Origin: Synergistes jonesii
GTDB lineage: Bacteria; Synergistota; Synergistia; Synergistales; Synergistaceae
Length of the DNA: 64,000 nucleotides
Direction: 5' to 3'
Assembly (NCBI RefSeq): GCF_000712295.1
Contig: NZ_JMKI01000031.1
Location: 1 to 64,000, forward strand
A model generated the notes under the pieces. That model was not told the origin of the DNA. It ran no database searches and saw only the letters and a program-made list of their open reading frames with translations. The position numbers and the translations under genes were made by a program. Every line of letters starts with the position of its first letter. Positions within the stretch are counted from its first letter, which is position 1. Positions 1,009 through 38,990 of the stretch are shown one piece after another.

Positions 1009-1281
1009 TCACACCACTATTATATCGGACTCATCATTTTTAGCATAGCCCATTCTGATAATTTCACAAGTTTTTGAAAGGCGGAATATCATCACACTGT
1101 CACTCTGGGAAAATTTCGGTTCAAATTTGTGTGTGATTTCCGCCTGGATATTCGACAGTATTTTTTCGCTGTTGTCGATTTCAAAAACAGAATATTGCAG
1201 CCTGTGTCCGAACTTTGAGATATACTTGAAAAATTTTGTCCGCAGCTTGTCGTCTGAAATATCATAACTGACAAGTATCAT
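1009..1281 (-). CDS. cas2: CRISPR-associated endonuclease Cas2
   Basis: A 90-residue Cas2, the usual size. It opens with the ferredoxin-like strand MILVSYDISDDKLRTKFFKY, whose conserved Asp follows Tyr, and continues with RLQYSVFEI. Cas2 forms the central dimer of the Cas1-Cas2 spacer-integration complex. The ATG overlaps the cas1 stop by four bases, so it is translationally coupled as the last gene of the cas operon. Nothing looks degraded. Confidence 0.95.
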   Translation of the reverse strand: MILVSYDISDDKLRTKFFKYISKFGHRLQYSVFEIDNSEKILSNIQAEITHKFEPKFSQSDSVMIFRLSKTCEIIRMGYAKNDESDIIVV

Positions 1282-2258
1282 TCTCCTTCATCCCTATCTA
1301 TGTTAAAGTAAGGAAAGTCTTCCGCTTGTGATCCTTTCATAAATTTTCTGTAATAACCCTGTATGTAGAGGAATATTTCTCTTTTATGCTCAAGTATTGG
1401 TTTCATCAGAAAATAGATGTAGTCTTTATTTTTATCCCATGACAAAACATTGCGGCCGTCAATAACCTGAAAATCTTCAGCTTTGCACTGTCCAAGGTTT
1501 ATTGATTTTTTTATCTGAATGTCGATCAGCGGACGCAGCGGCTCCACCAAATCGCATACAAGCGATTTTCTCATGTAAAACTGGCGGTGAAGCACCCCCT
1601 GATAGAGGTCAAAGCCATAAAGCTTTAAAAGAGATTCCACAATGCCGAATAAAATTGTGTAGCCTATATCCAGCGTGCTGTTCACGTAATCACTTTTTAT
1701 GCGAGGTTTTCTCCCCTTCCATTCAACGTTATTGAAGTGGTTTTTGAAATAGATTCGTGCGGCTGAGCCTTCAAGACCGATAAGCCCAGGCAGTTCACCT
1801 TCGTATGTTCTAACTTCAGCTGTGTGTTTTTCAATTTGTTCGATCGCTTCTTTTATCTCATCGGTTTTGTTCCTCTGCCGCGCGAGAGCTGAGCGCTGAT
1901 TCACTAGTTTATTTTCCACAAAGTGTTTCGCAAGCTCAAGTCCTGTATATGAATATTGCTTCCTGTGGAGTATTACATTTCCTTCCATCCTGTTTCCGAT
2001 AACGTCGTACGGCCGCATCGTATACGTCATAAGGATGATAGGAAAGCCGAATTTATGCGAACGCTGCAGTATCCCGCTTGTCATCGTGAAGTTACCTATG
2101 AGGAACAAGGCAAAGATTCTGTAGCAGGTCGACTGGTGTCTGATTTCACCGTCCCTGTCTTTTACGATTATATTGTCGTTGGCAAAGGAAAGGCTTTCCC
2201 CGAAATTCAAAAATATGAACAGTATCTGCTTTTTTTCGAATTCGTTGACGTTTATCAT
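1278..2258 (-). CDS. cas1: CRISPR-associated integrase Cas1 (type V-A)
   Basis: Metal-dependent integrase that joins new spacers to the array, 326 residues. The expected catalytic triad is present: Glu in GLIGLEGSAARIYF, His in GVLHRQFY, and the acidic residue in LVCDLVEPLRPLID. The N-terminal beta domain carries the family pattern IIVKDRDGE and ALFLIGNFTMTSGIL. The start overlaps the cas4 stop by four bases and the stop overlaps cas2 by four, so the adaptation genes form a tight translational chain. It looks intact, so adaptation could work if an array exists elsewhere. Confidence 0.95.
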   Translation of the reverse strand: MINVNEFEKKQILFIFLNFGESLSFANDNIIVKDRDGEIRHQSTCYRIFALFLIGNFTMTSGILQRSHKFGFPIILMTYTMRPYDVIGNRMEGNVILHRKQYSYTGLELAKHFVENKLVNQRSALARQRNKTDEIKEAIEQIEKHTAEVRTYEGELPGLIGLEGSAARIYFKNHFNNVEWKGRKPRIKSDYVNSTLDIGYTILFGIVESLLKLYGFDLYQGVLHRQFYMRKSLVCDLVEPLRPLIDIQIKKSINLGQCKAEDFQVIDGRNVLSWDKNKDYIYFLMKPILEHKREIFLYIQGYYRKFMKGSQAEDFPYFNIDRDEGE

Positions 2259-2818
2259 TGCGCCAAAGCGCTCCTATCGCATGCTGGCTCGTAGATACAT
2301 CTCCCGCATTTTGCCGTGTTGGTCTGAATAAAGCCCTCAGGCTGAAATTCGCGCAGAGCTTTGATCGTATTTTCAAACCTTGCAAGCATTTCGGTATCTT
2401 CATTGGGCGCTTTTACCTGAAATACTTTGTTGTCGTCAAGGCTGTAGAGGCGTATCTGCCTGATTGCATATCCTGCTTCCGTCAGAGAAAAATACTGCGC
2501 GTAAAGCTGAAAGATGTAGCCGTCGTATACAGTCGTTATTTTCTTTTTGCGTTCGGTCAGAATACCTTTGTCAATGTCGAACGTGTCGAGTTTGCCGCAG
2601 AGCCGGTAGCGTTCGCAGTACAGGGAGGCGCCTTGAAGTATCTTCTTTTTTGTGGAATATCTCCCTTTGTCTATCGCCTCATGCGCGTTTGTCCCGTTGA
2701 TTTGGTCGGTGTTCTGAAAAAGCATTGTGTCCATCTTCCCGTAAAGGTTATGAAAGTATATGGAAATAGGGCAGAATATGAAGTCGTTAAGCTGAGAAAA
2801 TAGGATTATATCGTCCAT
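2255..2818 (-). CDS. cas4: CRISPR-associated exonuclease Cas4
   Basis: RecB-like nuclease that trims and orients prespacers to a correct PAM. About 187 residues from ATG at 2818, chosen because GGAGTGGGGCGG lies just upstream and the protein then begins MDDIILFSQLNDFIFCPISIY, the normal Cas4 N-terminus with its first Fe-S Cys. An earlier in-frame codon at 2869 would overlap cas12a. The nuclease core is CGKLDTFD...LTERKKK and the C-terminal iron-sulfur cysteines are in CGRCIYEPAC. It begins 16 bases after the cas12a stop and overlaps cas1. Confidence 0.93.
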   Translation of the reverse strand: MDDIILFSQLNDFIFCPISIYFHNLYGKMDTMLFQNTDQINGTNAHEAIDKGRYSTKKKILQGASLYCERYRLCGKLDTFDIDKGILTERKKKITTVYDGYIFQLYAQYFSLTEAGYAIRQIRLYSLDDNKVFQVKAPNEDTEMLARFENTIKALREFQPEGFIQTNTAKCGRCIYEPACDRSALAQ

Positions 2819-2834
2819 ATTCCGCCCCACTCCG

Positions 2835-5800
2835 TTAAAAGTCAAATTTTCTCGTCTGCATAAATTCAAACCATTTCGGGTTGGAGACCGCCATATCCTT
2901 ATAATCTATTCTTCCGTCCTCTTTCAGCTTTTCGTCTATGGCGTCGAGAACAAGTGAGCCTTTGAGCGCGATATGATACGCACCGTTTGCGTCCGCGTCG
3001 ATCGGAAGCGCGGCATCTGTTTTTCTGCTGTCGAAAAAGCGGCCTTTGGCGTTAAGTACGGGCGATATTATGAAGTCTTCGCCGGTATCTCTTTTGCTGT
3101 TCCTCATCTGCAGAGTGTTTTTGAAAACGTAAAAGATTTCCGACGCAAGGCTTTTATCTCTGCTAATCACATCAGGGAGGATGTCCTCTCCGGCCTTGTA
3201 AGCGAGAGCATACTTGTTGAGAATATTTTTCATATCTTCTGTCAATAATCTATCATTCATGCGGAACTTTCCGTCTTTGTCTTTTTCTCTTACGATTCTT
3301 TTGCCGTTCGTCCACACCGCCCATTTTTTACGGTATGAGGTCTGATATGTCCTGAATTTATCGTAGTCGAATTCAAAAGTGAACATATCCCTTTTGGCGT
3401 CAAAGCGTATGCTGTCAAGCTTTCCGATAAAATCCTTCTGTTTTTCTTTTGAAGAGACGTCGTTTATGTTGAATAGATTTACAAACCCCGTAGTCGGGTC
3501 GATCTTTGAGGTGTAGCCGGCGGGTATGTAAAAAATTATTCCGCACTGCTTTCCCAACTTCGTAAAACTTTCGAACTTTTCAGTAAGCTGCAGGCCTTTC
3601 AGTATTCCGCACGGGGCGTCATACCCGGCGTCTTTGAAAACGAGATAGTTCAGCTTATCTATAAGCATCTTTTCAAATTTTTGATAAACCTGCTTTTCGA
3701 CCTTGAAGCGGCCGCGCTTGAAGCCTATATTAAGGTCTTCCATGACAATCACGGCGTTGTTGTCGACCGCCAGCCTGACTATCTCATGCACGACCTGAGA
3801 GAGGTAGCCTTCTTTTAGCTCTTTTATCGTACCTATTGTTTTCCAGCTTTTGCGGGCGGTGTCGCGCTCCTTTTCCTTCTGGTTAAGCTTCGCGTGATAG
3901 TCCATTCCGCCGATAATGTTGAAGTCCTTCTGTAACTTTATGTGCCCATCCCTGTCGATAAGGGAGACATAGACGAGATTGCGCTCGCCGCGGTCGATGC
4001 CGATTATATTCACGTCTTTGTTATTCCTGAGGAAGAGGTTGACATCGCTGTTGATATTGCCCTGCCCCTGTGCCTTAAAATTTATGGTGAAGGGAACGTG
4101 GAAGAAATATTTGTCTATAGTGTAGCGCTTGTCTTTGACAAGCTCATGCTTTACTTCTGTTATGCGTACGAGGCCGCTCTCTATGAGCCCGCGCGCGCCG
4201 GCGTTCAAAGAAGCCATATCCCTTTTGCCGTTGGCATAGCCGCATATTTCGACATACGTACCCTCGTCGATAGGATTGCCGTCGATATCGCGCCTGTTGA
4301 CCTTCATCGAACCTTTCGCATGCACAGCAGGCTTATCGATGCTCTTTCTGCGGAAGAAGAGCTCGGCTTCTCCGTTGAGCTTCAACACCACGTCCTTTAG
4401 ATTCTCTTCCGAGAATATAGCTTTCCAGTAGAGCGTGTGCAGATTCGGGCTTCCCTGCGCGCCGTCCGCAAAATCTTTGTTGTATATCTGGAATAGGAAG
4501 AGTCTGCCTTCCTCTACCCACTTATCGATTTTCTCCGCTGAAAGACGCGTGAAGGTGAGCTTATAGCCCTGATCCTGAACTTCCATGTAAAAATCGCTGA
4601 TGTCTTCATATGAATCGGTATCGGAAAAATCAAAGCCAAACGTCCTCCAGTCTTTGTGTTTATTTATGGAGTCTTTAAAAAAGTCAATCAGCTTGTGACA
4701 ATCTGTTCTGTTAAAGTTTTTGTCTTTTATAAATGTCTTATTTTCTTTTATCAGAAGAATCTCACGCGATGGGTTGTAGCGCTTAGGAGCTCTTTTCGGG
4801 AGAAAGACTTTTGGCAACTCCATATGAGGAGTTGGAATAAATTTATAATTCATTTTCATATAGCCGTAGGCACTGCCGTCATCGGCCAGATCGTCCGCTC
4901 TGAGCTTATTGTTTTTGTCAATCACGCCAAGGTAATATTTTCCGTCTTTCATCAAAATTATAGCCGTGTTGTTCTGTTCTTTATTCTTGTCCCATCCTTT
5001 GGCAAGAGCCGGGTTTTCAAAGTTCAGCTTGAACTTCTCAGTACTGAATGGTTTTTGCGTTGTGTAATTTCTGACCGCGTTATAGACGGGGATCACATCC
5101 TTTACGCTGTCATATATCTCGGCAAAGGCCGAGTAGAATTCAGTATCGATATCAGAGATGTCCTCTGTCTCAAACGGCTTCAGGCAGTGAAGGATGTCGT
5201 TCAGGCTGTCCAGGTAAGCCTTTATGATTTCCGTTTTGCCGTCGTCCCCGCGAAAAGCCTTGCTTTCCGCGGCGAAGTAGCTGAATTTTCGCCCATTTTC
5301 AGCCGCCGTCTCGATTAGGTTTGTGAACTTAGCAAAGTAACTGGCTGAAGGAGCTGAAGATATATCGGCGGAAACCTGTTCGCTGTAGGATTTGACAGCA
5401 GCGTCTATATCAGCAAATGAGAAGTATTTTGACTTGAGCCATTTCTCTGCCTTCTTGCCCGCGCTTCTTGCGCCGTTAAATTCATTTTCTTTAAATTCTT
5501 TCAGCGCGTCTTCAATAAAGCTCCAGTTTTTGAACAGCTCATTGGAGAACGCGGAAATAGAGCTGTTTTTTATCCAGATTTTGTCTAAAGAATATAAATT
5601 ATTTTTGCCGAAGAGCCTTTTTATTCTGTTAAAGATATCGTTGCGTTCGAGCTCCGAACGAAGGCCGTCCACGGCATTGATCGCCTGTTCGTCGTCTTTC
5701 AGCGCCTCCGGCACGAATGAGAGCGTAGTTCTGTCGCTGAGGATCTGTTTGTACAGCGGAACCATCTTAATCCGCAGACTTGCCACTTCTGGATGCTGCT

Positions 5801-6614
5801 GTCTGTAAAGGTTTGAGAACTCGTTAACGCCGCGGAGCTTTTTGTCTCCGGCCTTGCCTGATACGCCGCCGATTATCTGGTTGTAGTAATCGATCTTGTC
5901 CTGAGTCAGGACATTGTTGAAACTCTCAATGCTGAATATGTCATCAAGCGTTTTGCCGCCTAATATCCCGGAGAGCTCTTTCTGCGCTTTGTCTATGACC
6001 TCCGGCGCCCTTTCTTTAATTAAAGTGTACGCACGGACGTTCGCCAGGAACTTTGGAAAGTTCTGATGTACGATACGGAATGCGATAGATGTGCTGGTAT
6101 CTTTCTTTGAATAAATGTTTTTCCGGTTTTCATGGAATCCTGTAAAGTACGTAGAAAATTTATCAAAAGACTTAACCGCGTCAAGCTGCGCCTGTTTTTC
6201 CAAGTCGGAGACAAGCTCGGACTTTATCATTTCCGGAAGCAGTTCGGAGAAAAGCTCTTTTTTAAACAGCTTCTTATAAACCGCCTGAGACGTAAACATA
6301 CTTATAATTTTTTCGCGCATCTCTTTTTGTTCTGCCGGCAAAGCCTTGTTGTTTTTGCTACCGCTCTGAATGAGTGCCTCCGCCAAAGGATTCCAGTCAA
6401 AATGAGCGGGGTCGAGCGTCTCATGTATAAATTTCCTGTGGTAATCGTCGATGAGTTTCGTTACGCTTTTATAATCTTCACCGCGTTTTTCATCGTGCAT
6501 TATGATAAGTTTCCGGTTTATATGTTCTTCCGTCTTTCCTATAGGCTTCAGTTCGAATCTCAACGTTTTGCTGAGCTGGTAAATGTTTGTGAAATCCTTG
6601 AGACTATTCGCCAT
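2835..6614 (-). CDS. cas12a: Cas12a (Cpf1), type V-A RNA-guided DNA nuclease
   Basis: Single-protein effector that processes its crRNA and cuts DNA. From ATG 6614 it is 1,259 residues, a normal size. The N-terminus is the family hallmark KDFTNIYQLSKTLRFELKPIGKT. RuvC I is IIGIDRGERN (Asp about 874), RuvC II VIVMEDLNIGFKRGR (Glu about 959), RuvC III IDADANGAYHIALKG (Asp about 1206-1208). The nuclease-lobe Arg is in LQMRNSKRDTGEDF. The crRNA-processing region FFHVPFTINFKAQG keeps its His and Lys. AAGGGATGG about ten bases upstream favours 6614; ATG 6623 is too close to that site, and the longer frame opens at TTG 6692. All key residues are present, so it is probably active. Confidence 0.96.
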   Translation of the reverse strand: MANSLKDFTNIYQLSKTLRFELKPIGKTEEHINRKLIIMHDEKRGEDYKSVTKLIDDYHRKFIHETLDPAHFDWNPLAEALIQSGSKNNKALPAEQKEMREKIISMFTSQAVYKKLFKKELFSELLPEMIKSELVSDLEKQAQLDAVKSFDKFSTYFTGFHENRKNIYSKKDTSTSIAFRIVHQNFPKFLANVRAYTLIKERAPEVIDKAQKELSGILGGKTLDDIFSIESFNNVLTQDKIDYYNQIIGGVSGKAGDKKLRGVNEFSNLYRQQHPEVASLRIKMVPLYKQILSDRTTLSFVPEALKDDEQAINAVDGLRSELERNDIFNRIKRLFGKNNLYSLDKIWIKNSSISAFSNELFKNWSFIEDALKEFKENEFNGARSAGKKAEKWLKSKYFSFADIDAAVKSYSEQVSADISSAPSASYFAKFTNLIETAAENGRKFSYFAAESKAFRGDDGKTEIIKAYLDSLNDILHCLKPFETEDISDIDTEFYSAFAEIYDSVKDVIPVYNAVRNYTTQKPFSTEKFKLNFENPALAKGWDKNKEQNNTAIILMKDGKYYLGVIDKNNKLRADDLADDGSAYGYMKMNYKFIPTPHMELPKVFLPKRAPKRYNPSREILLIKENKTFIKDKNFNRTDCHKLIDFFKDSINKHKDWRTFGFDFSDTDSYEDISDFYMEVQDQGYKLTFTRLSAEKIDKWVEEGRLFLFQIYNKDFADGAQGSPNLHTLYWKAIFSEENLKDVVLKLNGEAELFFRRKSIDKPAVHAKGSMKVNRRDIDGNPIDEGTYVEICGYANGKRDMASLNAGARGLIESGLVRITEVKHELVKDKRYTIDKYFFHVPFTINFKAQGQGNINSDVNLFLRNNKDVNIIGIDRGERNLVYVSLIDRDGHIKLQKDFNIIGGMDYHAKLNQKEKERDTARKSWKTIGTIKELKEGYLSQVVHEIVRLAVDNNAVIVMEDLNIGFKRGRFKVEKQVYQKFEKMLIDKLNYLVFKDAGYDAPCGILKGLQLTEKFESFTKLGKQCGIIFYIPAGYTSKIDPTTGFVNLFNINDVSSKEKQKDFIGKLDSIRFDAKRDMFTFEFDYDKFRTYQTSYRKKWAVWTNGKRIVREKDKDGKFRMNDRLLTEDMKNILNKYALAYKAGEDILPDVISRDKSLASEIFYVFKNTLQMRNSKRDTGEDFIISPVLNAKGRFFDSRKTDAALPIDADANGAYHIALKGSLVLDAIDEKLKEDGRIDYKDMAVSNPKWFEFMQTRKFDF

Positions 6615-6691
6615 ATTTTCCATCCCTTCTCTGATAGGCGTTTTATCGTAAAAATTGCAATGCTGAACAAAAGAAAAAATTATCCTGTCCA

Positions 6692-6721
6692 ACTATATCA
6701 TGATTTGTCGTTTTGTGTAAA
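6692..6721 (-). promoter_or_regulatory. Candidate promoter of the cas12a operon
   Basis: On the minus strand, TTTACA (6716-6721) and TATAGT (6692-6697) are separated by 18 bases, which would leave a leader of roughly 70 bases before the cas12a ATG. This is by eye only. Confidence 0.4.
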
Positions 6722-28160: not shown

Positions 28161-28309
28161 TTCCTGACACAACCCAAAAATCAGTTGAGGCAGAGTATTA
28201 AGCAATCAGCGAATACAAATATCAATGCCGAAAACATTAAAAGCACTTTTATAAAATTGCCATCATTACCTGAACAGCAGAAGATTGGGGACTTTTTTGC
28301 TGAATTCGG

Positions 28310-28338
28310 CAACCTTATCACTCTTCATCAGCGTGAGC
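28310..28338 (+). repeat. Left copy of the 29-bp inverted repeat flanking the recombinase
   Basis: Perfect inverted match to 29318-29346, enclosing the recombinase gene. It encodes N-L-I-T-L-H-Q-R-E in hsdS frames. The active hsdS has the same element at 34780-34808 with one mismatch (CACTCTT here, CACCCTT there) and a shorter version at 34166-34192. Confidence 0.85.
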
Positions 28339-28356
28339 GCAATGATGAAGAGTGAT
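28317..28356. terminator. 14-bp perfect stem-loop beside the recombinase stop
   Basis: ATCACTCTTCATCA (28317-28330) and TGATGAAGAGTGAT (28343-28356) are exact complements with a 12-base loop. The stem uses the inner part of the inversion repeat. It may end transcription from either side, or form part of a recombination site. Confidence 0.55.
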
Positions 28357-28361
28357 TGTTA

Positions 28362-29291
28362 TCAAGAGAGCCCGGACAAAGACCGCATAACAAGGTCTAC
28401 ATCCTGATTTTCGAGTTCTTGAATTATGTGCAAATATGTTTTCTGGGTTGTCGTCATGCTGGCATGGCCAAGTCTTCTTGCCACGCTTGCGATAGATACT
28501 CCGGCGAAGAGGAGCAAAGATGCATGGGTATGCCGTAGTCCGTGTATGGTAATGACTGGGATTCCTGCTTTTTTACAATGCCGGGCTAAAATACTATTGA
28601 CCGTTGAATTGTAAACACATGGCTTTTTTACAAAGATGGGCTCGTCTTCCGGAATCTTTCGTACAAGTTCTGAGAACTGAATAACAGTTTGCCAGTCGAT
28701 TTGTATTTTTCTAACCGATGACCTGTTTTTCGTTGGCAAAAAGCCTCCGTTTCCTTTATAGTCCCATGTCTTGCTTATAGAAAGAGTCTGGTGAGCAAAA
28801 TCAAAATCTTTGGGCGTTAAAGCCAGCGCTTCTGAGAACCTCATTCCAGTCTTTGTTACCAATAAAATGAACCAATCCCAATTAATTTCTCCCTTTAGAT
28901 TGAGCGAACTAAGAAGCGTGTGGAGCTCAAATTGGTTGATGTATTTATCCTTTTTTTCGGACGGTTGCTTTCCCTTGATTATAGCTTTACGGGTAGGGTC
29001 TTTTTCAATTAGTCCGTCGTCTACTGCATCTTGAATGGCGCCTTTCAACTGATGATGGAAATCCATTGTCGTCTGCCTTTCATGGTAGCGCGCATAATTG
29101 TTCAACAGCTGCTGATATGTTACTCTGTTCAACTCACATATCTGCAACTCCGGAATTAGTTTGACAATCCATGAATGGGACATCTTATATTTGTCCATCG
29201 TGACTTTTCTTACAGCGCCCTCTTTGTACACACTTATCCATTGGGCATAATAATCGCAAAACAAGTCGTTTCCTTTGATTTTACTTAACAT
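28362..29291 (-). CDS. Tyrosine site-specific recombinase (hsdS invertase candidate)
   Basis: About 309 residues from ATG 29291, with GGAGG at ideal spacing. The N-terminal SAM-like core-binding domain (DYYAQWISVYKEGAVRKVTM) is followed by the catalytic domain with Arg in TKTGMRFSEALAL, HGLRHTHASLLL (HxxR), LGHASMTTTQKTYLHI (His and nucleophile Tyr). All catalytic residues are present. It lies between perfect 29-bp inverted repeats and next to a silent hsdS cassette, the arrangement of phase-variable type I systems, so it most likely inverts hsdS DNA. Confidence 0.9.
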   Translation of the reverse strand: MLSKIKGNDLFCDYYAQWISVYKEGAVRKVTMDKYKMSHSWIVKLIPELQICELNRVTYQQLLNNYARYHERQTTMDFHHQLKGAIQDAVDDGLIEKDPTRKAIIKGKQPSEKKDKYINQFELHTLLSSLNLKGEINWDWFILLVTKTGMRFSEALALTPKDFDFAHQTLSISKTWDYKGNGGFLPTKNRSSVRKIQIDWQTVIQFSELVRKIPEDEPIFVKKPCVYNSTVNSILARHCKKAGIPVITIHGLRHTHASLLLFAGVSIASVARRLGHASMTTTQKTYLHIIQELENQDVDLVMRSLSGLS

Positions 29292-29317
29292 TTTTTCCTC
29301 CAATAAATTCTAAAAAT

Positions 29318-29346
29318 GCTCACGCTGATGAAGAGTGATAAGGTTG
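29318..29346 (-). repeat. Right copy of the 29-bp inverted repeat, end of the silent hsdS cassette
   Basis: Exact inverted counterpart of 28310-28338. It includes the same T that distinguishes both silent-locus copies from the two active-hsdS copies, consistent with exchange between the silent copies. Confidence 0.85.
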
Positions 29347-29816
29347 TCTATACCTCTGAAAAAGCCACTAATCCGAATCTGCTCTTCATGACTCGGATAG
29401 GATAAATCTATCTTTTCCAAGTCCGTATTATGAAGGTGAACAACCGACTTTCCTTGTGCCATTTTAGCCATATCGTTATGTGGCTTTCCATTAGAAATGC
29501 TGATAGCTAAAAATGCGGAATCAATATCTGTTGGTGGAGTGATGATATTAAGGTCGCCACCAAGCAAAACCCCTGATTTTTCAACGACTGAGGCGATTGA
29601 AATATCCTCTGCTGTTTCTCCAGAAGCAGGCACGATTACCTCACCGCCACGACTAAATACCGAACCAGGTTTTTCATCGGCAAAGGTATCAACATCAGCT
29701 ATTACCGTTTCATACTTTGTATAGAGCCTGCCGTATAGGATGATGGGTGTCCCGGACTCCTTCAAGTCACCTTTGGAATAGCCTGTTCCTTTCGAGAACT
29801 GTACCATCTCGCCAAG

Positions 29817-29834
29817 CTTACGCTGTTCCCAAGC
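29817..29834 (-). repeat. WEQRK-coding element, silent cassette copy
   Basis: GCTTGGGAACAGCGTAAG on the minus strand. Identical 18-mers occur on the plus strand in the active hsdS at 33659-33676 and 34292-34309, at the start of each recognition domain. This makes inverted pairs between silent and active loci. Confidence 0.85.
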
Positions 29835-29918
29835 GATTGTAAAAAACTTTTCAATGCACTTGTAAAATTGAAATGAAAATGCCATAATAAAGCTATTAAT
29901 ATGCATAGGAGATGCGGG

Positions 29919-30149
29919 ATGAATCTTTCTAATGAGATTAAGATAATTCGTCAAAAGGCTTTTATGACACAAGAAGCTTTTGCAAAGGCGCTGAATGTTG
30001 CATTTTCGACGGTAAATCGTTGGGAATCAGGGAAAACGCACCCTAATATGACAGCTATGAAGCAGCTGAAAATTTTCTGTGATGTAAATAATATATCTTT
30101 TGATGAACTTCAGAATGCATGGTTGAATAAATCGAAGGAGGTAAAATGA
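29919..30149 (+). CDS. XRE-family helix-turn-helix regulator
   Basis: 76 residues from ATG 29919, preceded by AGGAG; the ATG at 29901 lacks a ribosome site. The whole protein is a single HTH_3 domain: EIKIIRQKAFMTQEAFAKAL, then NVAFSTVNRWESGKTHPNMT. It probably controls the downstream nuclease and restriction genes, like a C-protein. It overlaps the next gene by four bases. Confidence 0.85.
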   Translation: MNLSNEIKIIRQKAFMTQEAFAKALNVAFSTVNRWESGKTHPNMTAMKQLKIFCDVNNISFDELQNAWLNKSKEVK

Positions 30150-30982
30150 TGGCCACAAGCAAGAAACTTGAGATCATTTATCACGATGGTCAGCCTGACG
30201 GCATTCGTTCAGTTCGCCGCCATCTTTCAACTGTTACGACCTATGTCATTCCTCGCACAATGCTTTCTGATGCAAAAAACATCTCCGGTATCAATCGCCC
30301 GGGTATCTATTATCTTATAAACGAAGATGAAGACAACAATATAGCTCAGATTTATATTGGTCAGACACGAAACGGCATCAGCAGACTGGACGATCATAAC
30401 CGTTCAAAAGATTTCTGGAACAAGGCAATTATGTTCTTGGCGGATAATAAGACCTTTTCTTTGGATATCATAAGCGGCCTTGAAGAATATGCCATCTCCA
30501 AAGCATGGGAGTCAAAACGCTATAAGGTTGAAAACTCTGTTAAGCCTAAATACGACATTGATGAATACGATCTTGTTTCTATTGAAGAAATATACGATGA
30601 AATCAAGTTCGTGATGGCAACATTGGGCTATAAACTGGAAAATACGCAGGAGAACACAAAAAACGCTCAAATCCTTCATACCACCCGAAACGGAATAACC
30701 GCCCTTGGCGTTTATAGCGGCGACAAGTTCGATGTTCTCGAAGGCTCTGAAATCAATATGGACAAGCCTGTTCACCTACCGAAGTATAACAAGCAGAGGC
30801 AGGAGCTTTTGGACGATGGTCATATCATTTCAGAAAACGGAAAATCAATTCTGAAAATCACCCTGACATTCAACACCCCCAGCGGAGCGAGCAACTTTGT
30901 TCTTGGAGGATCAACAAACGGTTGGGCTGAATGGAAGAACAGTGATGGAAAAACCTTAGATGAACTTTTCCGCAAATCATAG
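30146..30982 (+). CDS. GIY-YIG nuclease with C-terminal DUF4357 domain
   Basis: 278 residues. The GIY-YIG core is GIYYLINEDEDNNIAQIYIGQ with the Arg-containing TRNGISRLDDHN at about residues 50-90 and the metal-binding Glu in SGLEEYAISKAWE. The C-terminal FNTPSGASNFVLGGSTNGWA and WKNSDGKTLDEL is DUF4357. Proteins of this build sit beside restriction-modification genes and may be accessory nucleases. It follows the XRE gene and lies 65 bases ahead of hsdM. Confidence 0.85.
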   Translation: MMATSKKLEIIYHDGQPDGIRSVRRHLSTVTTYVIPRTMLSDAKNISGINRPGIYYLINEDEDNNIAQIYIGQTRNGISRLDDHNRSKDFWNKAIMFLADNKTFSLDIISGLEEYAISKAWESKRYKVENSVKPKYDIDEYDLVSIEEIYDEIKFVMATLGYKLENTQENTKNAQILHTTRNGITALGVYSGDKFDVLEGSEINMDKPVHLPKYNKQRQELLDDGHIISENGKSILKITLTFNTPSGASNFVLGGSTNGWAEWKNSDGKTLDELFRKS

Positions 30983-31047
30983 CATAGTCCGTTTTTTGGT
31001 ACATAAGATAAAATATAACCGTCAAATAATATTTTGGAGGAAGCCGT

Positions 31048-33606
31048 ATGAATAAGCAGCAACTTGCTTCTAAGATCTGGGAATCAGCAAATAAAATGCG
31101 ATCCAAGATTGAAGCGAATGAGTACAAGGATTATATTTTAGGCTTTATCTTCTATAAATTTCTTTCTGACAAGGAAATAAAATATCTGAAGCAGAACGAC
31201 TGGACTGATGAAGATATCAAAGGTTTTCTGAATGAAGATGACAGAGAGACCGTTGAAAGTATTCATAAGAACGTGGGCTACTTTATCGCCTATGAGAATT
31301 TGTTTTCAACCTGGCTTGAAATGGGTTCGGACTTTAATGTGTCCAACGTCCGTGATGCCCTTTCCGCGTTCAGCAGACTGATTAACGCATCGCACAAAAA
31401 AGTCTTTGACAAGATTTTTGATACCTTGCAGACCGGTCTTTCTAAGCTGGGCGACAGCTCCGGTACCCAAACCAAGGCAATCAGCGATTTGATCCATCTG
31501 ATTAAGGATATCCCGATGGATAGCAAGCAGGATTATGATGTGCTGGGCTTCATTTATGAGTATCTGATTTCCAATTTTGCCGCAAACGCCGGCAAAAAAG
31601 CGGGCGAATTCTACACCCCACACGAAGTATCGCTGCTCATGTCTGAAATCGTTGCTGACCACCTCAAGGATAGAACCGAAATCAAAATTTACGACCCGAC
31701 CAGCGGCTCCGGCTCCCTGCTTATCAATATCGGTAAATGCGTTGCAAAATACATGGGCGACGGCGATAAAATCAAATACTATGCGCAGGAGCTCAAGGAA
31801 AACACCTATAACCTGACGAGAATGAACTTGGTCATGCGCGGTATATTGCCGGACAATATCGCCACGCGAAACGGTGATACGCTGGAGGAAGACTGGCCGT
31901 ACTTTGATGAAAGCGACCCTGTTGGTACTTATGATCCTCTTTATGTGGACGCTGTTGTTTCCAATCCGCCGTATTCACAGAACTGGAACCCCGCAAATAA
32001 GGAATCAGACCCGCGTTACAAGTCCTATGGACTTGCCCCGAAAGGAAAAGCGGATTATGCCTTCCTGCTTCATGACCTTTACCATATTAAACCCGACGGT
32101 TTAATGACCATCGTTCTTCCGCACGGTGTTTTGTTCCGTGGCGGTGAAGAAGGCGAAATCCGTAAAAATCTTATTGAAAACAACAAGATTGATGCCATTA
32201 TTGGTCTGCCTGCTAATATTTTCTTCGGCACAGGTATCCCTACGATTATCATGGTGCTGAAACAGCGCCGCAGCAATACGGACGTATTGATTATCGATGC
32301 ATCCAAGGGCTTTGAAAAGGTTGGAAAGACCAATAAGCTCCGCGCTTCTGATATTAAAAAGATCGTGGACGCAGTAACTTCCCGTGTGAGCATTCCCAAG
32401 TTCTCCAGGGTCGTGAGCAGAGAAGAAATCCGTCAGAACGATTACAACCTGAATATTCCCCGCTATGTGGATTCTTCTGAAAAGCCAGAAAGCTGGGATA
32501 TTTATGCCTCCATGTTTGGCGGCATCCCTGCCGGTGAAGTAAATGACCTGAGTGCGTACTGGGATGCTTTTCCCACACTCAAAAAAGCTTTGTTTGACGA
32601 TGCTGATGCTCCCTATCTGCATTTCAATGTTGAGGACATCAAGAAAACTGTTTCGGAACATGCTGACGTTACCGCTTTTGAGGGAAAATTCAAATCCGCC
32701 TTTGACGGCTTTGATTCTTATCTGGCTGAAGAATTAATCGGCGGAATGGATGCCATCAACATTTCCAAGGAAGAAAGCGCTCTTTCCGCGAAGATATTCG
32801 ACCGTCTTGACGGTATTCCGCTTGTTGACAGATACGAAGCATATCAGCTTCTGGACAATGAATGGAGCAGAATCGCAGTTGACCTTGAAATAATCCAGAC
32901 CGAAGGATTTGACGCCGCAAAGAAAGTTGACCCCAATATGGTCGTCAGGAAAAAAGACGGCAAGGATACCGAAGTTCAGGATGGCTGGATCGGCCATGTA
33001 ATCCCCTTTGAACTGGTTCAGGAAAAGCATCTGTCTGAAAAGCTTTCTGCACTCAAAGCAAACGAGACCCGCCTGACGGAAATTGCCGCCGGATTTGAAG
33101 AACAGCTCGACGAGCTGCCCGAAGAGGAAAAAGAAAAGGATTTTGTCAATGATGACAAAACAGCTTTTGTTGCCGCCGCAGTAAAGAAAGCAATCAAGGC
33201 GAAAGAGGTTGAACCGGAAATCCTTGACATTCTGAAAAAGGTCGATGCACTTGTTGCAGAGGAGAAGGCCGCCAAGAAGAAAGTCAAGGACGATTCCGCG
33301 GCACTTCATCTTGAAACAAAAGCAAAGATCGAACAGCTTTCTGACGATGAGGTAAAAGAACTCTTGAGGGAAAAGTGGATCGCACCCGTTGTAAACGGTC
33401 TTTCTAAGCTGCCCGGCGGCATTGTAAACGGGTTTGTTTCAAAGCTGGAAGCTCTCGCCAAGAAGTACGAGACAACTTTCTTTGAAGTCGAAGAAGAAAT
33501 CCGCAATGTAGAATCCGACTTGGCCGGTATGTTGGAACAACTCACGGGCAATGATTACGACATGCAGGGGCTTGCGGAGTTCAAAAAGCTTCTTGGAGGT
33601 GAATAA
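31048..33606 (+). CDS. hsdM: Type I restriction-modification methyltransferase subunit HsdM
   Basis: N6-adenine methylase of the HsdM2-HsdS complex, 852 residues. The N-terminal helical domain is LASKIWESANKMRSKIEANE. The S-adenosylmethionine motif is YDPTSGSGSLLINIGKC and the catalytic motif IV is VVSNPPYSQNW. At more than 800 residues it is longer than the classic 500-residue HsdM; the extra C-terminal third is acidic and helical (DEQLDELPEEEKEKDFVNDD-type stretches), as in a known long-HsdM group. TTGGAGGAAG precedes the ATG, and hsdS starts two bases after its stop. Confidence 0.95.
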   Translation: MNKQQLASKIWESANKMRSKIEANEYKDYILGFIFYKFLSDKEIKYLKQNDWTDEDIKGFLNEDDRETVESIHKNVGYFIAYENLFSTWLEMGSDFNVSNVRDALSAFSRLINASHKKVFDKIFDTLQTGLSKLGDSSGTQTKAISDLIHLIKDIPMDSKQDYDVLGFIYEYLISNFAANAGKKAGEFYTPHEVSLLMSEIVADHLKDRTEIKIYDPTSGSGSLLINIGKCVAKYMGDGDKIKYYAQELKENTYNLTRMNLVMRGILPDNIATRNGDTLEEDWPYFDESDPVGTYDPLYVDAVVSNPPYSQNWNPANKESDPRYKSYGLAPKGKADYAFLLHDLYHIKPDGLMTIVLPHGVLFRGGEEGEIRKNLIENNKIDAIIGLPANIFFGTGIPTIIMVLKQRRSNTDVLIIDASKGFEKVGKTNKLRASDIKKIVDAVTSRVSIPKFSRVVSREEIRQNDYNLNIPRYVDSSEKPESWDIYASMFGGIPAGEVNDLSAYWDAFPTLKKALFDDADAPYLHFNVEDIKKTVSEHADVTAFEGKFKSAFDGFDSYLAEELIGGMDAINISKEESALSAKIFDRLDGIPLVDRYEAYQLLDNEWSRIAVDLEIIQTEGFDAAKKVDPNMVVRKKDGKDTEVQDGWIGHVIPFELVQEKHLSEKLSALKANETRLTEIAAGFEEQLDELPEEEKEKDFVNDDKTAFVAAAVKKAIKAKEVEPEILDILKKVDALVAEEKAAKKKVKDDSAALHLETKAKIEQLSDDEVKELLREKWIAPVVNGLSKLPGGIVNGFVSKLEALAKKYETTFFEVEEEIRNVESDLAGMLEQLTGNDYDMQGLAEFKKLLGGE

Positions 33607-33607
33607 C

Positions 33608-34861
33608 ATGGCCGAAACCGCGAAAAAGCCGGCAATTCGGTTCAAGGGATTCACAGGCGCTTGGGAACAGCGTAAGTTTGGCGATATTTCTGAAATAAAA
33701 ACTGGTCCATTTGGAAGTACCCTTCATGCGGGCGATTACGTTACAGACGGTGTACCAATAATAACAACTGAGCATTTTAAGACTGGAACTTTGCAGAATG
33801 ACAAGGAAGGTTTGCCACAAGTTTCTCAAGAAGATTATGAACGGTTGTTGTCTTACGTGCTAAACGATGGTGATGTTGTCTTTTCTCGTGTTGGTTCAGT
33901 TGATGTAAACGCTTTAATTACGCCGTTTCAAGACGGGTGGTTGTTCTCTGGGCGAGTTTTGAGGGTTCGTCCAAGTAGAGGGAGTGATTCTCAATTCTTA
34001 CATACTTTATTAGAAACCGAAGATGTTAAAAATGATATTCGAGCAAGGGCTGTTGGCCAAACTATGCCAAGTATCAACACTGAAATCTTGAAAGCTACAA
34101 TACTGTTGTTGCCAACATCTGAAACGGAACAGCGCCAAATCGGGGCATGTTTCCGACAACTTGATCACCTTATCACCCTTCATCAGCGTAAGTATGACAA
34201 GCTCGTGAATGTGAAAAAATCCTGCCTCGAAAAAATGTTCCCGAAAAATGGCAGTAATGTTCCGGAAATTCGATTTTCCGGATTTACGGAAGCTTGGGAA
34301 CAGCGTAAGCTTAGAAACATCGCTGATAAAGTGACGGAAAAGAATGCCGATCTGGCGGTTTTGGAAACATTTACGAACTCTGCCGAATTCGGAATTATTA
34401 GCCAACGAGACTTTTTCGATCACGATATTTCGAACGCAGAGAATATCGGCGGGTATTATGTTGTGAAAAATGAAGATTTTGTCTATAATCCGCGCATCTC
34501 TGTTACTGCTCCTGTAGGCCCTATAAATCGCAATAAATTGGGCAGAAATGGCGTAATGTCGCCACTTTATACGGTGTTCCGCACACATGATATAGACACC
34601 ACTTATCTGGAATGGTTTTTCAAGAGTGCTTCTTGGCACGATTTTATGCATTACAACGGTGACTCCGGAGCAAGGTCAGACAGATTTTCAATCAAAGATG
34701 CGGTCTTTTTTGAGATGTCAATTCCCTATCCAGAGATTGCTGAACAGCGGAAAATTGGTCGATACTTAGATCAGCTTGACAACCTTATCACCCTTCATCA
34801 GCGTGAGCTTGAAAAGCTTCAAAATCTGAAGAAAGCTTGCCTTGAAAAGATGTTCGTGTAA
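33608..34861 (+). CDS. hsdS: Type I restriction-modification specificity subunit HsdS (active copy)
   Basis: 417 residues with two target-recognition domains. ATG 33608 follows TTGGAGGTG. The first half runs from RFKGFTGAWEQRKFGD to LITLHQRKYDKLVNVKKSC, the second from RFSGFTEAWEQRKLRN to LITLHQRELEKLQNLKKAC. These paired boundaries are encoded by near-identical DNA repeats (33659 and 34292; 34166 and 34780), which are also found in the inverted silent cassette. The protein decides which DNA sequence is methylated and cut, so swapping a half changes specificity. Confidence 0.95.
   Translation: MAETAKKPAIRFKGFTGAWEQRKFGDISEIKTGPFGSTLHAGDYVTDGVPIITTEHFKTGTLQNDKEGLPQVSQEDYERLLSYVLNDGDVVFSRVGSVDVNALITPFQDGWLFSGRVLRVRPSRGSDSQFLHTLLETEDVKNDIRARAVGQTMPSINTEILKATILLLPTSETEQRQIGACFRQLDHLITLHQRKYDKLVNVKKSCLEKMFPKNGSNVPEIRFSGFTEAWEQRKLRNIADKVTEKNADLAVLETFTNSAEFGIISQRDFFDHDISNAENIGGYYVVKNEDFVYNPRISVTAPVGPINRNKLGRNGVMSPLYTVFRTHDIDTTYLEWFFKSASWHDFMHYNGDSGARSDRFSIKDAVFFEMSIPYPEIAEQRKIGRYLDQLDNLITLHQRELEKLQNLKKACLEKMFV
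33659..33676 (+). repeat. WEQRK-coding element, first copy in active hsdS
   Basis: GCTTGGGAACAGCGTAAG, identical to 34292-34309 and inverted relative to 29817-29834. Confidence 0.85.
34166..34192 (+). repeat. LITLHQR-coding element, internal copy in active hsdS
   Basis: Closely matches 34780-34808 (CACCTTATCACCCTTCATCA, continuing GCGTAAG) and is inverted relative to 29318-29346. It marks the end of the first recognition domain. Confidence 0.8.
34292..34309 (+). repeat. WEQRK-coding element, second copy in active hsdS
   Basis: Identical to 33659-33676. It marks the start of the second recognition domain. Confidence 0.85.
34780..34808 (+). repeat. LITLHQR-coding element, end of active hsdS
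   Basis: 28 of 29 bases match 28310-28338; inverted relative to 29318-29346. The single difference is C for T in CACCCTT. Confidence 0.85.
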
Positions 34862-34892: not shown

Positions 34893-35066
34893 ATGAGTAT
34901 TGAAGACAAAATCAAAAATGTAAAAGGTTCTTTCGCAATGGAAGGGATCGAAATGACAAAAACCGATGAAATGAATGCGAATGAGATTATTTCCAAAAAG
35001 AGAGACGTGGAGGAAATAATCTCTGAATTGAAGCGCAAGTATTCGGTAGCGGGGAGTTCATTATGA
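34893..35066 (+). CDS. VbhA-like antitoxin of a Fic toxin
   Basis: 57 residues from ATG 34893, with GGAAGGAAA upstream. KNVKGSFAMEGIEMTKTDEM contains SFAMEG, the [S/T]xxxE[G/N] inhibitory helix that blocks the Fic active site in class I toxin-antitoxin pairs. The stop overlaps the fic ATG by four bases, so antitoxin is made first and in step with toxin. It lies directly after hsdS. Confidence 0.82.
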   Translation: MSIEDKIKNVKGSFAMEGIEMTKTDEMNANEIISKKRDVEEIISELKRKYSVAGSSL

Positions 35067-35680
35067 AAGACATAGACTATTCTTATGAGTATAAGGATGA
35101 CGATAACAAGTATTGTTATCCCGGAACGAATGTGCTGAAAAACAAACTCAGCATTAAAGACTCGGAGATGCTTTATAACGCAGAAAGAGAATTTTCGATG
35201 GCGAGATACGCCGCGCTTCAGGTCAAACCGATTAACGGTGACTTTTCGTTAAAGCATCTGCGAGAGATTCATAAGTATCTTTTTCAGGATGTTTATGATT
35301 GGGCTGGTGTTCTCCGAACCGTGGACATTTCAAAAGGGACGATCTTCTGTCTTGTACAGCATATCGAGGCACAGTTTGAAATCATTCACCAATGGCTGAA
35401 GAAAAGGAACTATCTGAAAGATGTTTCGGACAGGGTTGAGATGGCAAAAGATCTTGCTTATGTTCTTGGCGAAATAAATATGATACATCCATTTAGAGAA
35501 GGAAACGGAAGAGCCCAAAGGCTATATATTGAACAATTATGCGAGAATAACGGAAGGTTTGAAGTGAATTTTTCTTTTGCTACACAAGAGGAAATGCTTA
35601 AAGCCAGTGTGGATGCCAGTGTGTGTAATTATGAGGCTATGGAGGCGCTTTTCTTGAAGTGTCTTATTGAAAGGAATTAA
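35063..35680 (+). CDS. fic: Fic-domain AMPylating toxin
   Basis: 205 residues. The catalytic loop HPFREGNGRAQR is a full match to HPFx[D/E]GNGR, with the loop upstream (KGTIFCLVQHIEAQFEII) as the usual target-binding flap. It should transfer AMP to a host protein unless held by the SFAMEG antitoxin. It is encoded between hsdS and hsdR, two bases before hsdR, so it is transcribed with the restriction genes. Confidence 0.92.
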   Translation: MKDIDYSYEYKDDDNKYCYPGTNVLKNKLSIKDSEMLYNAEREFSMARYAALQVKPINGDFSLKHLREIHKYLFQDVYDWAGVLRTVDISKGTIFCLVQHIEAQFEIIHQWLKKRNYLKDVSDRVEMAKDLAYVLGEINMIHPFREGNGRAQRLYIEQLCENNGRFEVNFSFATQEEMLKASVDASVCNYEAMEALFLKCLIERN

Positions 35681-38829: not shown

Positions 38830-38848
38830 CTTCTGCATACAGCATAAA

Positions 38849-38990
38849 CTTGGTGAAGAATATAAAATTACAATGGGACAATCTCCCGACGGCACTATAT
38901 ATAGCGATTTCCCCTCTGATTATTCTTGTTCAGGGAAATGCTGATTTGAAAGACGGCTGGGTATGTCCGAGAGTATGGACAACGCAAAAG
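38849..38990 (+). pseudogene. hsdS: Frameshifted hsdS fragment at the right island border
   Basis: After the hsdR stop one frame reads LGEEYKITMGQSPDGTIYSD and then FPSDY, and the next frame continues ILVQGNADLKDGWVCPRVWT. Together these match a known type of HsdS recognition-domain opening, broken by a small deletion near 38920-38925. There is no start and no further domain. It implies that the locus once held a further hsdS copy. Confidence 0.65.

Follow-up and report, generated by a model that had tools for sequence, protein, structure and literature searches.

A type I restriction-modification locus of Synergistes jonesii with an inverted silent recognition-domain cassette and a probable recombinase-driven specificity switch

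A type I restriction-modification locus in Synergistes jonesii is probably able to change, by reshuffling, the DNA sequences that it marks and cuts, as judged from its own sequence and from those of related loci. The locus lies in the window analyzed here, a 64,000-nucleotide stretch of contig NZ_JMKI01000031.1, and combines an active hsdS gene with two recognition domains (TRDs T1 and T2), a silent cassette with a third (T3), and an intact tyrosine recombinase gene (Table 1). The TRDs are bounded by near-invariant sites, and TRDs are found in different slots of related loci. We consider it highly probable that recombinase-driven inversions at both the start and the end repeats exchange the TRDs and thereby give six specificities. 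Switches of this type are already known in other bacteria (SpnIII/cod, SpnIV/tvr, and the Mycoplasma hsd loci), and the layout found here is uncommon.

Table 1 Features of the locus and other genes in the window.
Feature	Coordinates	Strand	Evidence or remark
Cas1	1278-2258	-	
Cas4	2255-2869	-	
Cas12a (Cpf1), 1285 aa	2835-6692	-	
3' remnant of a third TRD-type sequence (C-terminal ~52 aa)	28186-28340	+	open frame LRQSIKQSANTN...LITLHQRER
Site A, tail repeat closing the left TRD remnant	28310-28338	+	
Tyrosine recombinase, 313 aa from first TTG (ATG at 29291)	28362-29303	-	PF00589, E 3.9e-21
Silent hsdS' cassette T3	29310-29972	-	PF01420, E 8.7e-8
Site B, tail repeat of the silent TRD	29318-29346	-	
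Site C, 18-bp TRD-start repeat of the silent cassette	29817-29834	-	
HTH_3 regulator, 82 aa	29901-30149	+	PF01381
GIY-YIG/DUF4357 protein	30146-30982	+	Pfam; PADLOC candidate PDC-S14
hsdM, 852 aa	31048-33606	+	PF02384, E 1.1e-102; TIGR00497 above cut-off
Active hsdS, 417 aa, two TRDs (T1, T2)	33608-34861	+	PF01420 twice; PADLOC Specificity_I
Site D, TRD-start repeat, slot 1	33659-33676	+	
Site E, tail repeat, slot 1	34166-34194	+	
Site F, TRD-start repeat, slot 2	34292-34309	+	
Site G, tail repeat, slot 2	34780-34808	+	
57-aa ORF just 5' of fic	34893-35066	+	translation
Fic protein, VbhT-like	35063-35680	+	PF02661; NF045983 below cut-off
hsdR, 1048 aa	35683-38829	+	TIGR00348 above cut-off
5' remnant of another TRD, directly 3' of hsdR	38839-38989	+	frameshift, decayed start repeat

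The locus is hosted by an island of ~11 kb between hydF and an aminotransferase gene, with a GC content of 40-47% as compared to ~60% in most of the flanking DNA. Because the island is absent from a second genome of the same genus (G001), where only a short spacer separates hydF from the aminotransferase gene, ~11 kb must have been inserted in S. jonesii. The recombinase was found in one of 183 genomes searched from the host order, as against 410 related stretches in a wider collection (judging by their titles, the 80 listed come mostly from Bacillota), so the island was probably acquired horizontally, from elsewhere. When a plasmid collection was searched, the hsdM matches were distant, the hsdS matches were short, and nothing closer was found. 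Type V-A CRISPR genes occupy positions 1278-6692 on the minus strand, in a second low-GC stretch of the window.

Read from left to right, the island contains a TRD 3' remnant (+), the recombinase (-), silent T3 (-), the HTH regulator (+), the GIY-YIG/DUF4357 protein (+), hsdM (+), and hsdS with T1-T2 (+), followed by the 57-aa ORF, fic, hsdR (+), and a TRD 5' remnant (+). The three genes of a type I system, hsdM, hsdS, and hsdR, are all present and intact according to Pfam, NCBIfam, and PADLOC, and the same resources confirmed the recombinase and the claim, made earlier from the sequence of this region, that a silent recognition cassette, a single-TRD ORF, lies opposite to the active hsdS. A homologue of the GIY-YIG/DUF4357 protein is also located upstream of hsdM in the related locus L018, and the placement of fic between hsdS and hsdR recurs in L018, L053, L060, L063, and L096. 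A Pfam search with the 57-aa ORF returned no family; its sequence SFAMEG fits the (S/T)xxxE(G/N) inhibitory motif, making the product a possible antitoxin.

The edges of the TRDs are marked by a start repeat and an end repeat. The 18-mer GCTTGGGAACAGCGTAAG, which encodes AWEQRK at each TRD start, is present exactly where the original prediction had placed it (sites C, D, and F), with no fourth copy in the whole window at up to two mismatches and none in 100 shuffles. The domain-end element, also predicted correctly at 29318, 34166, and 34780, encodes LITLHQR and again has a chance expectation of zero (100 shuffles), and chance was thus ruled out as the origin of either repeat. In the form CTTATCACYCTTCATCAGCGTRAG, the end element spans 29319-29342 (-), 34169-34192 (+), and 34784-34807 (+), plus a fourth copy at 28314-28337 (+) that was missing from the text of the prediction, even though the region it described begins there. 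Sites A and B constitute a perfect 29-bp inverted pair that shares a variant base not present in E or G, and since this pair flanks the recombinase gene, the gene itself could flip. The perfect match between sites C and F extends to 21 bp (GCTTGGGAACAGCGTAAGCTT), in inverted orientation and 4.5 kb apart. All seven sites retain a short core, CAGCGTRAG, on which the recombinase would act in both the start repeats (C, D, F) and the end repeats (A, B, E, G). A search of the organism's own genome for the tail core found no copies above chance outside the locus. A perfect inverted repeat of 14 bp around a 12-nt loop (28317-28356, ATCACTCTTCATCA...TGATGAAGAGTGAT), located between the stop codon of the recombinase and the site A tail repeat, may be a terminator, a recombinase site, or a product of chance.

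As AWEQRK and LITLHQR, the peptides encoded by the repeats, are conserved in HsdS, the repeats could be viewed as conserved coding sequence only, with the TRDs moved by general homologous recombination and the recombinase a mere neighbor in the island. Shuffling between long repeats in pneumococcus that is independent of both RecA and the local recombinase provides a precedent (PMC6620402). Synonymous codon usage makes this explanation very unlikely. Among 128 distinct TRD starts, the start repeat codons were GAA in 128/128, CAG in 127/127, CGT in 117/128, and AAG in 124/128, and among 145 distinct TRD ends, the end repeat codons were CTT and CAT in all 145, CAG in 136, and CGT in 137. For the conserved residues next to the repeats (E, Q, I, and G 5' of the tail repeat; R and F 5' of the start repeat), most of the synonyms are in use. 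Codons that are near-invariant inside the repeats and free beside them point to selection on the DNA, as expected of recombination sites, and the frozen synonyms rule out coding conservation as the whole explanation, with a control set that is small: in S genes from loci that lack this recombinase, similar peptides are encoded by other codons (six start peptides and one end peptide), and the 16-mer is absent from this small sample. A pattern search of 30 recombinase-bearing genomes yielded no clear control outside such loci, as the sites that were checked by position all fell in recombinase-linked loci.

The linkage of the core to the recombinase also weighs against a mere neighbor. The recombinase had been described as complete and adjacent to the silent cassette, and this holds: it is full length and retains R155, H254, R257, H280, and Y290, as judged by alignment with 80 relatives. 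In most of the 80 loci listed from the 410 related stretches, the recombinase adjoins hsdR, hsdM, or hsdS, and S'(+) recombinase(+) S'(-) is a frequent arrangement. The core, searched as CARCGYRRG, lies within 60 nt of the recombinase on both sides in 36 of the 80 loci and on one side in a further 23, as compared to 37 of 3240 random windows, and it flanks the recombinase even in loci without an adjoining TRD. The two flanks of a locus also match each other (mean score 17.0) better than flanks drawn from different loci (13.3) or shuffled sequence (7.0). We infer that the recombinase acts on these sites.

Comparison among related loci strongly supports one part of the original prediction, recombinase-linked TRD shuffling, on the evidence of near-invariant repeats, TRDs found in different slots, and an inversion of hsdR. 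In L027, one TRD is found at 99.8% nucleotide identity both in active slot 2 and in a silent cassette beside the recombinase, and the identity ends at the 18-mer on one side and at the tail repeat on the other. The same TRD occupies two neighboring slots in L018, L026, and L060 (97.9-100% identity). L067 and L080 share 95% identity across the recombinase and hsdR, and hsdR is inverted relative to the recombinase between them with one break at the tail repeat, a comparison that uses gene order alone as the hsdM and hsdR frames of L080 are apparently split. The TRD of T3 (~29319-29843) is 87% identical at the amino acid level to active TRD2 of L092 across the whole TRD, without a stop or gap, and an equally close relative (87%) stands in slot 1 of a second hsdS (S') of L042, where it is followed by a relative of T2 (85%). 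The presence of these relatives in the slots of L092 and L042 indicates that T3 belongs to a functional type of TRD and that TRDs circulate among slots. TRDs also seem to pass from one genus to another as cassettes with these repeats at their edges. A single TRD is shared at 96% nucleotide identity by slot 1 of a Clostridium locus (L061:6084-6627) and slot 2 of a Lachnospiraceae locus (L072:4556-5099). Beside another related hsd locus (L084:14046-20870), there are two inverted repeats of 1.1 and 1.7 kb with 99.8-99.9% identity.

All inversions between same-type repeats in opposite orientation were simulated, which yielded 72 arrangements within eight steps. In silico, a single C-F or B-G inversion carries HTH-GIY-hsdM-T1 to the other strand, apart from fic-hsdR, and its product is a 402-aa HsdS that ends ...HQREHF and has lost the last conserved segment, while a single C-D or B-E inversion leaves a half-size HsdS. 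Paired inversions have a different outcome: C-F plus B-G cleanly exchanges T3 with T2, C-D plus B-E exchanges T3 with T1, and in both cases the operon is restored. All six ordered pairs of the three TRDs could be reached in at most four inversions with a full-length HsdS and an intact operon. The expectation that inversion between matching repeats swaps recognition domains is therefore borne out for paired start-start and end-end events and needs correction for single events, which also uncouple fic-hsdR and trim the HsdS C-terminus. In the proposed mechanism, the recombinase would join the start repeats, and likewise the end repeats, of the inverted silent cassette and of one hsdS slot, the silent TRD would replace T1 or T2, and the second inversion of the pair would restore the operon. 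Three TRDs would in this way supply six full-length HsdS proteins and six specificities, each common to methylation and restriction. The product of one inversion would be an intermediate, with HTH-GIY-hsdM and a shortened hsdS facing away from fic-hsdR, and the A/B pair may additionally flip the recombinase gene. Against the switching reading, a single inversion breaks the operon, which is less economical than SpnIII, and decayed TRDs at both ends of the island mean that the locus could be degenerating.

Those decayed ends, together with the occurrence of the recombinase in only one of the 183 genomes searched from the order, would fit a locus that was acquired with a shuffling history and no longer switches, leaving an ordinary type I system of one specificity. 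Both remnants are truncated, the right one is also frameshifted and its start repeat has decayed, and the assembly contains neither an alternative junction nor an extra hsdS fragment with these repeats elsewhere. Such a frozen state is nevertheless unlikely, as the recombinase frame and its catalytic residues are intact, T3 is unbroken, the core persists at every site, and the A/B pair, with its private variant base, looks as it would after a recent A-B exchange. Our reading thus remains that inversion would switch specificity in S. jonesii, with an effect on both methylation and restriction.

The remnants themselves suggest another route. The left one resembles the TRD ends of related loci (69% amino acid identity to L061), and the right one has 76% nucleotide identity over 153 nt to TRD2 of L062 and matches the post-hsdR cassette of L063. 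The ATG at 38963, which looks like the annotated start of the aminotransferase ORF, falls within the right remnant, so the real start of this gene is probably further downstream. Both remnants are on the plus strand, one after hsdR and the other before the recombinase, and joining the ends of the island gives M S fic R S'(+) INT(-) S'(-), which is the order of L042. The main reaction could accordingly be excision of a circle and its reintegration, as in SpnIV/tvr, where an ~18-bp midpoint repeat and an ~70-bp tail-end repeat share an ~11-bp common core (PMC6265443), and the present order would be a circular permutation of the usual one. Since the two remnants do not abut, the middle of the TRD being missing between them, circular permutation of the island stays a conjecture, and the remnants need not derive from one TRD. 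Excision as the main reaction is quite unlikely, as the silent and active TRDs are inverted relative to each other, which calls for inversion, and the only repeats paired in direct orientation are those of slots 1 and 2 and those that pair with site A.

Inversion at paired repeats can be set beside the known switches. SpnIV/tvr (PMC6265443) is likewise a type I system with a start repeat and a longer tail repeat around a common core, as found here, a tyrosine recombinase, single-TRD spare cassettes, and a Doc/Fic-type gene in the locus. Unlike tvr, in which all repeats are direct and circles are excised and reintegrated, sites B and C here run opposite to D-G, and the topology therefore differs. 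The tvr N- and C-terminal TRDs also keep to their slots, whereas here slots 1 and 2 have identical start repeats, the inverted spare cassette lies upstream of hsdM, and fic is between hsdS and hsdR instead of beside the recombinase. With SpnIII/cod/ivr and its recombinase PsrA (CreX), the locus shares short repeats with a common core, inverted hsdS sequences next to a tyrosine recombinase, and six possible HsdS alleles (PMC4948785, PMC7096588). Inverting type I systems are a recognized class that accounts for 3.9% of REBASE hsdS genes, defined by an opposed, variable second hsdS sequence within 30 kb and a shared perfect inverted repeat 20 bp or more in length (PMC7394358); sites C and F supply such a repeat, and unlike in the surveyed systems, the second copy is a single TRD upstream of hsdM. 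SpnIII inverts S sequences only and leaves hsdR and hsdM fixed, whereas HTH, GIY, and hsdM are within the segment here. L072 and L090 likewise have hsdM in a segment flanked by opposed S sequences. In Mycoplasma pulmonis, each locus has two complete hsdS genes, in place of the one hsdS and single-TRD cassette found here; its S genes flank hsdM and hsdR, so that these invert too, and the recombinase HvsR also acts on surface-antigen genes. As outlined in PMC4948785, HvsR is a tyrosine recombinase that inverts DNA between hsdS genes, with some products inactive, and in such inversion by a tyrosine recombinase the two systems would be alike.

With hsdM, the genes upstream of it, and probably their promoter inside the invertible segment, each single inversion parts hsdM-hsdS from fic-hsdR. 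A promoter scan upstream of the HTH gene found no candidate pointing toward the silent cassette, such scans being weak. After a single inversion, hsdR would presumably be silent. It is possible, if doubtful, that this geometry enforces methylation before cutting, in that the odd state, in which no promoter is evident for hsdR, would methylate under the changed specificity, and cutting would resume with the second inversion.

If specificity switching occurs, it would alter the range of incoming DNA that is cut as well as the pattern of methylation across the genome. One clone could then hold several defense states and possibly several gene-expression states. The layout, with an invertible unit that contains hsdM, makes the avoidance of self-cutting at a change of specificity a testable question, and the near-invariant core offers a candidate site for a recombinase family of hundreds of loci, mostly in Bacillota.
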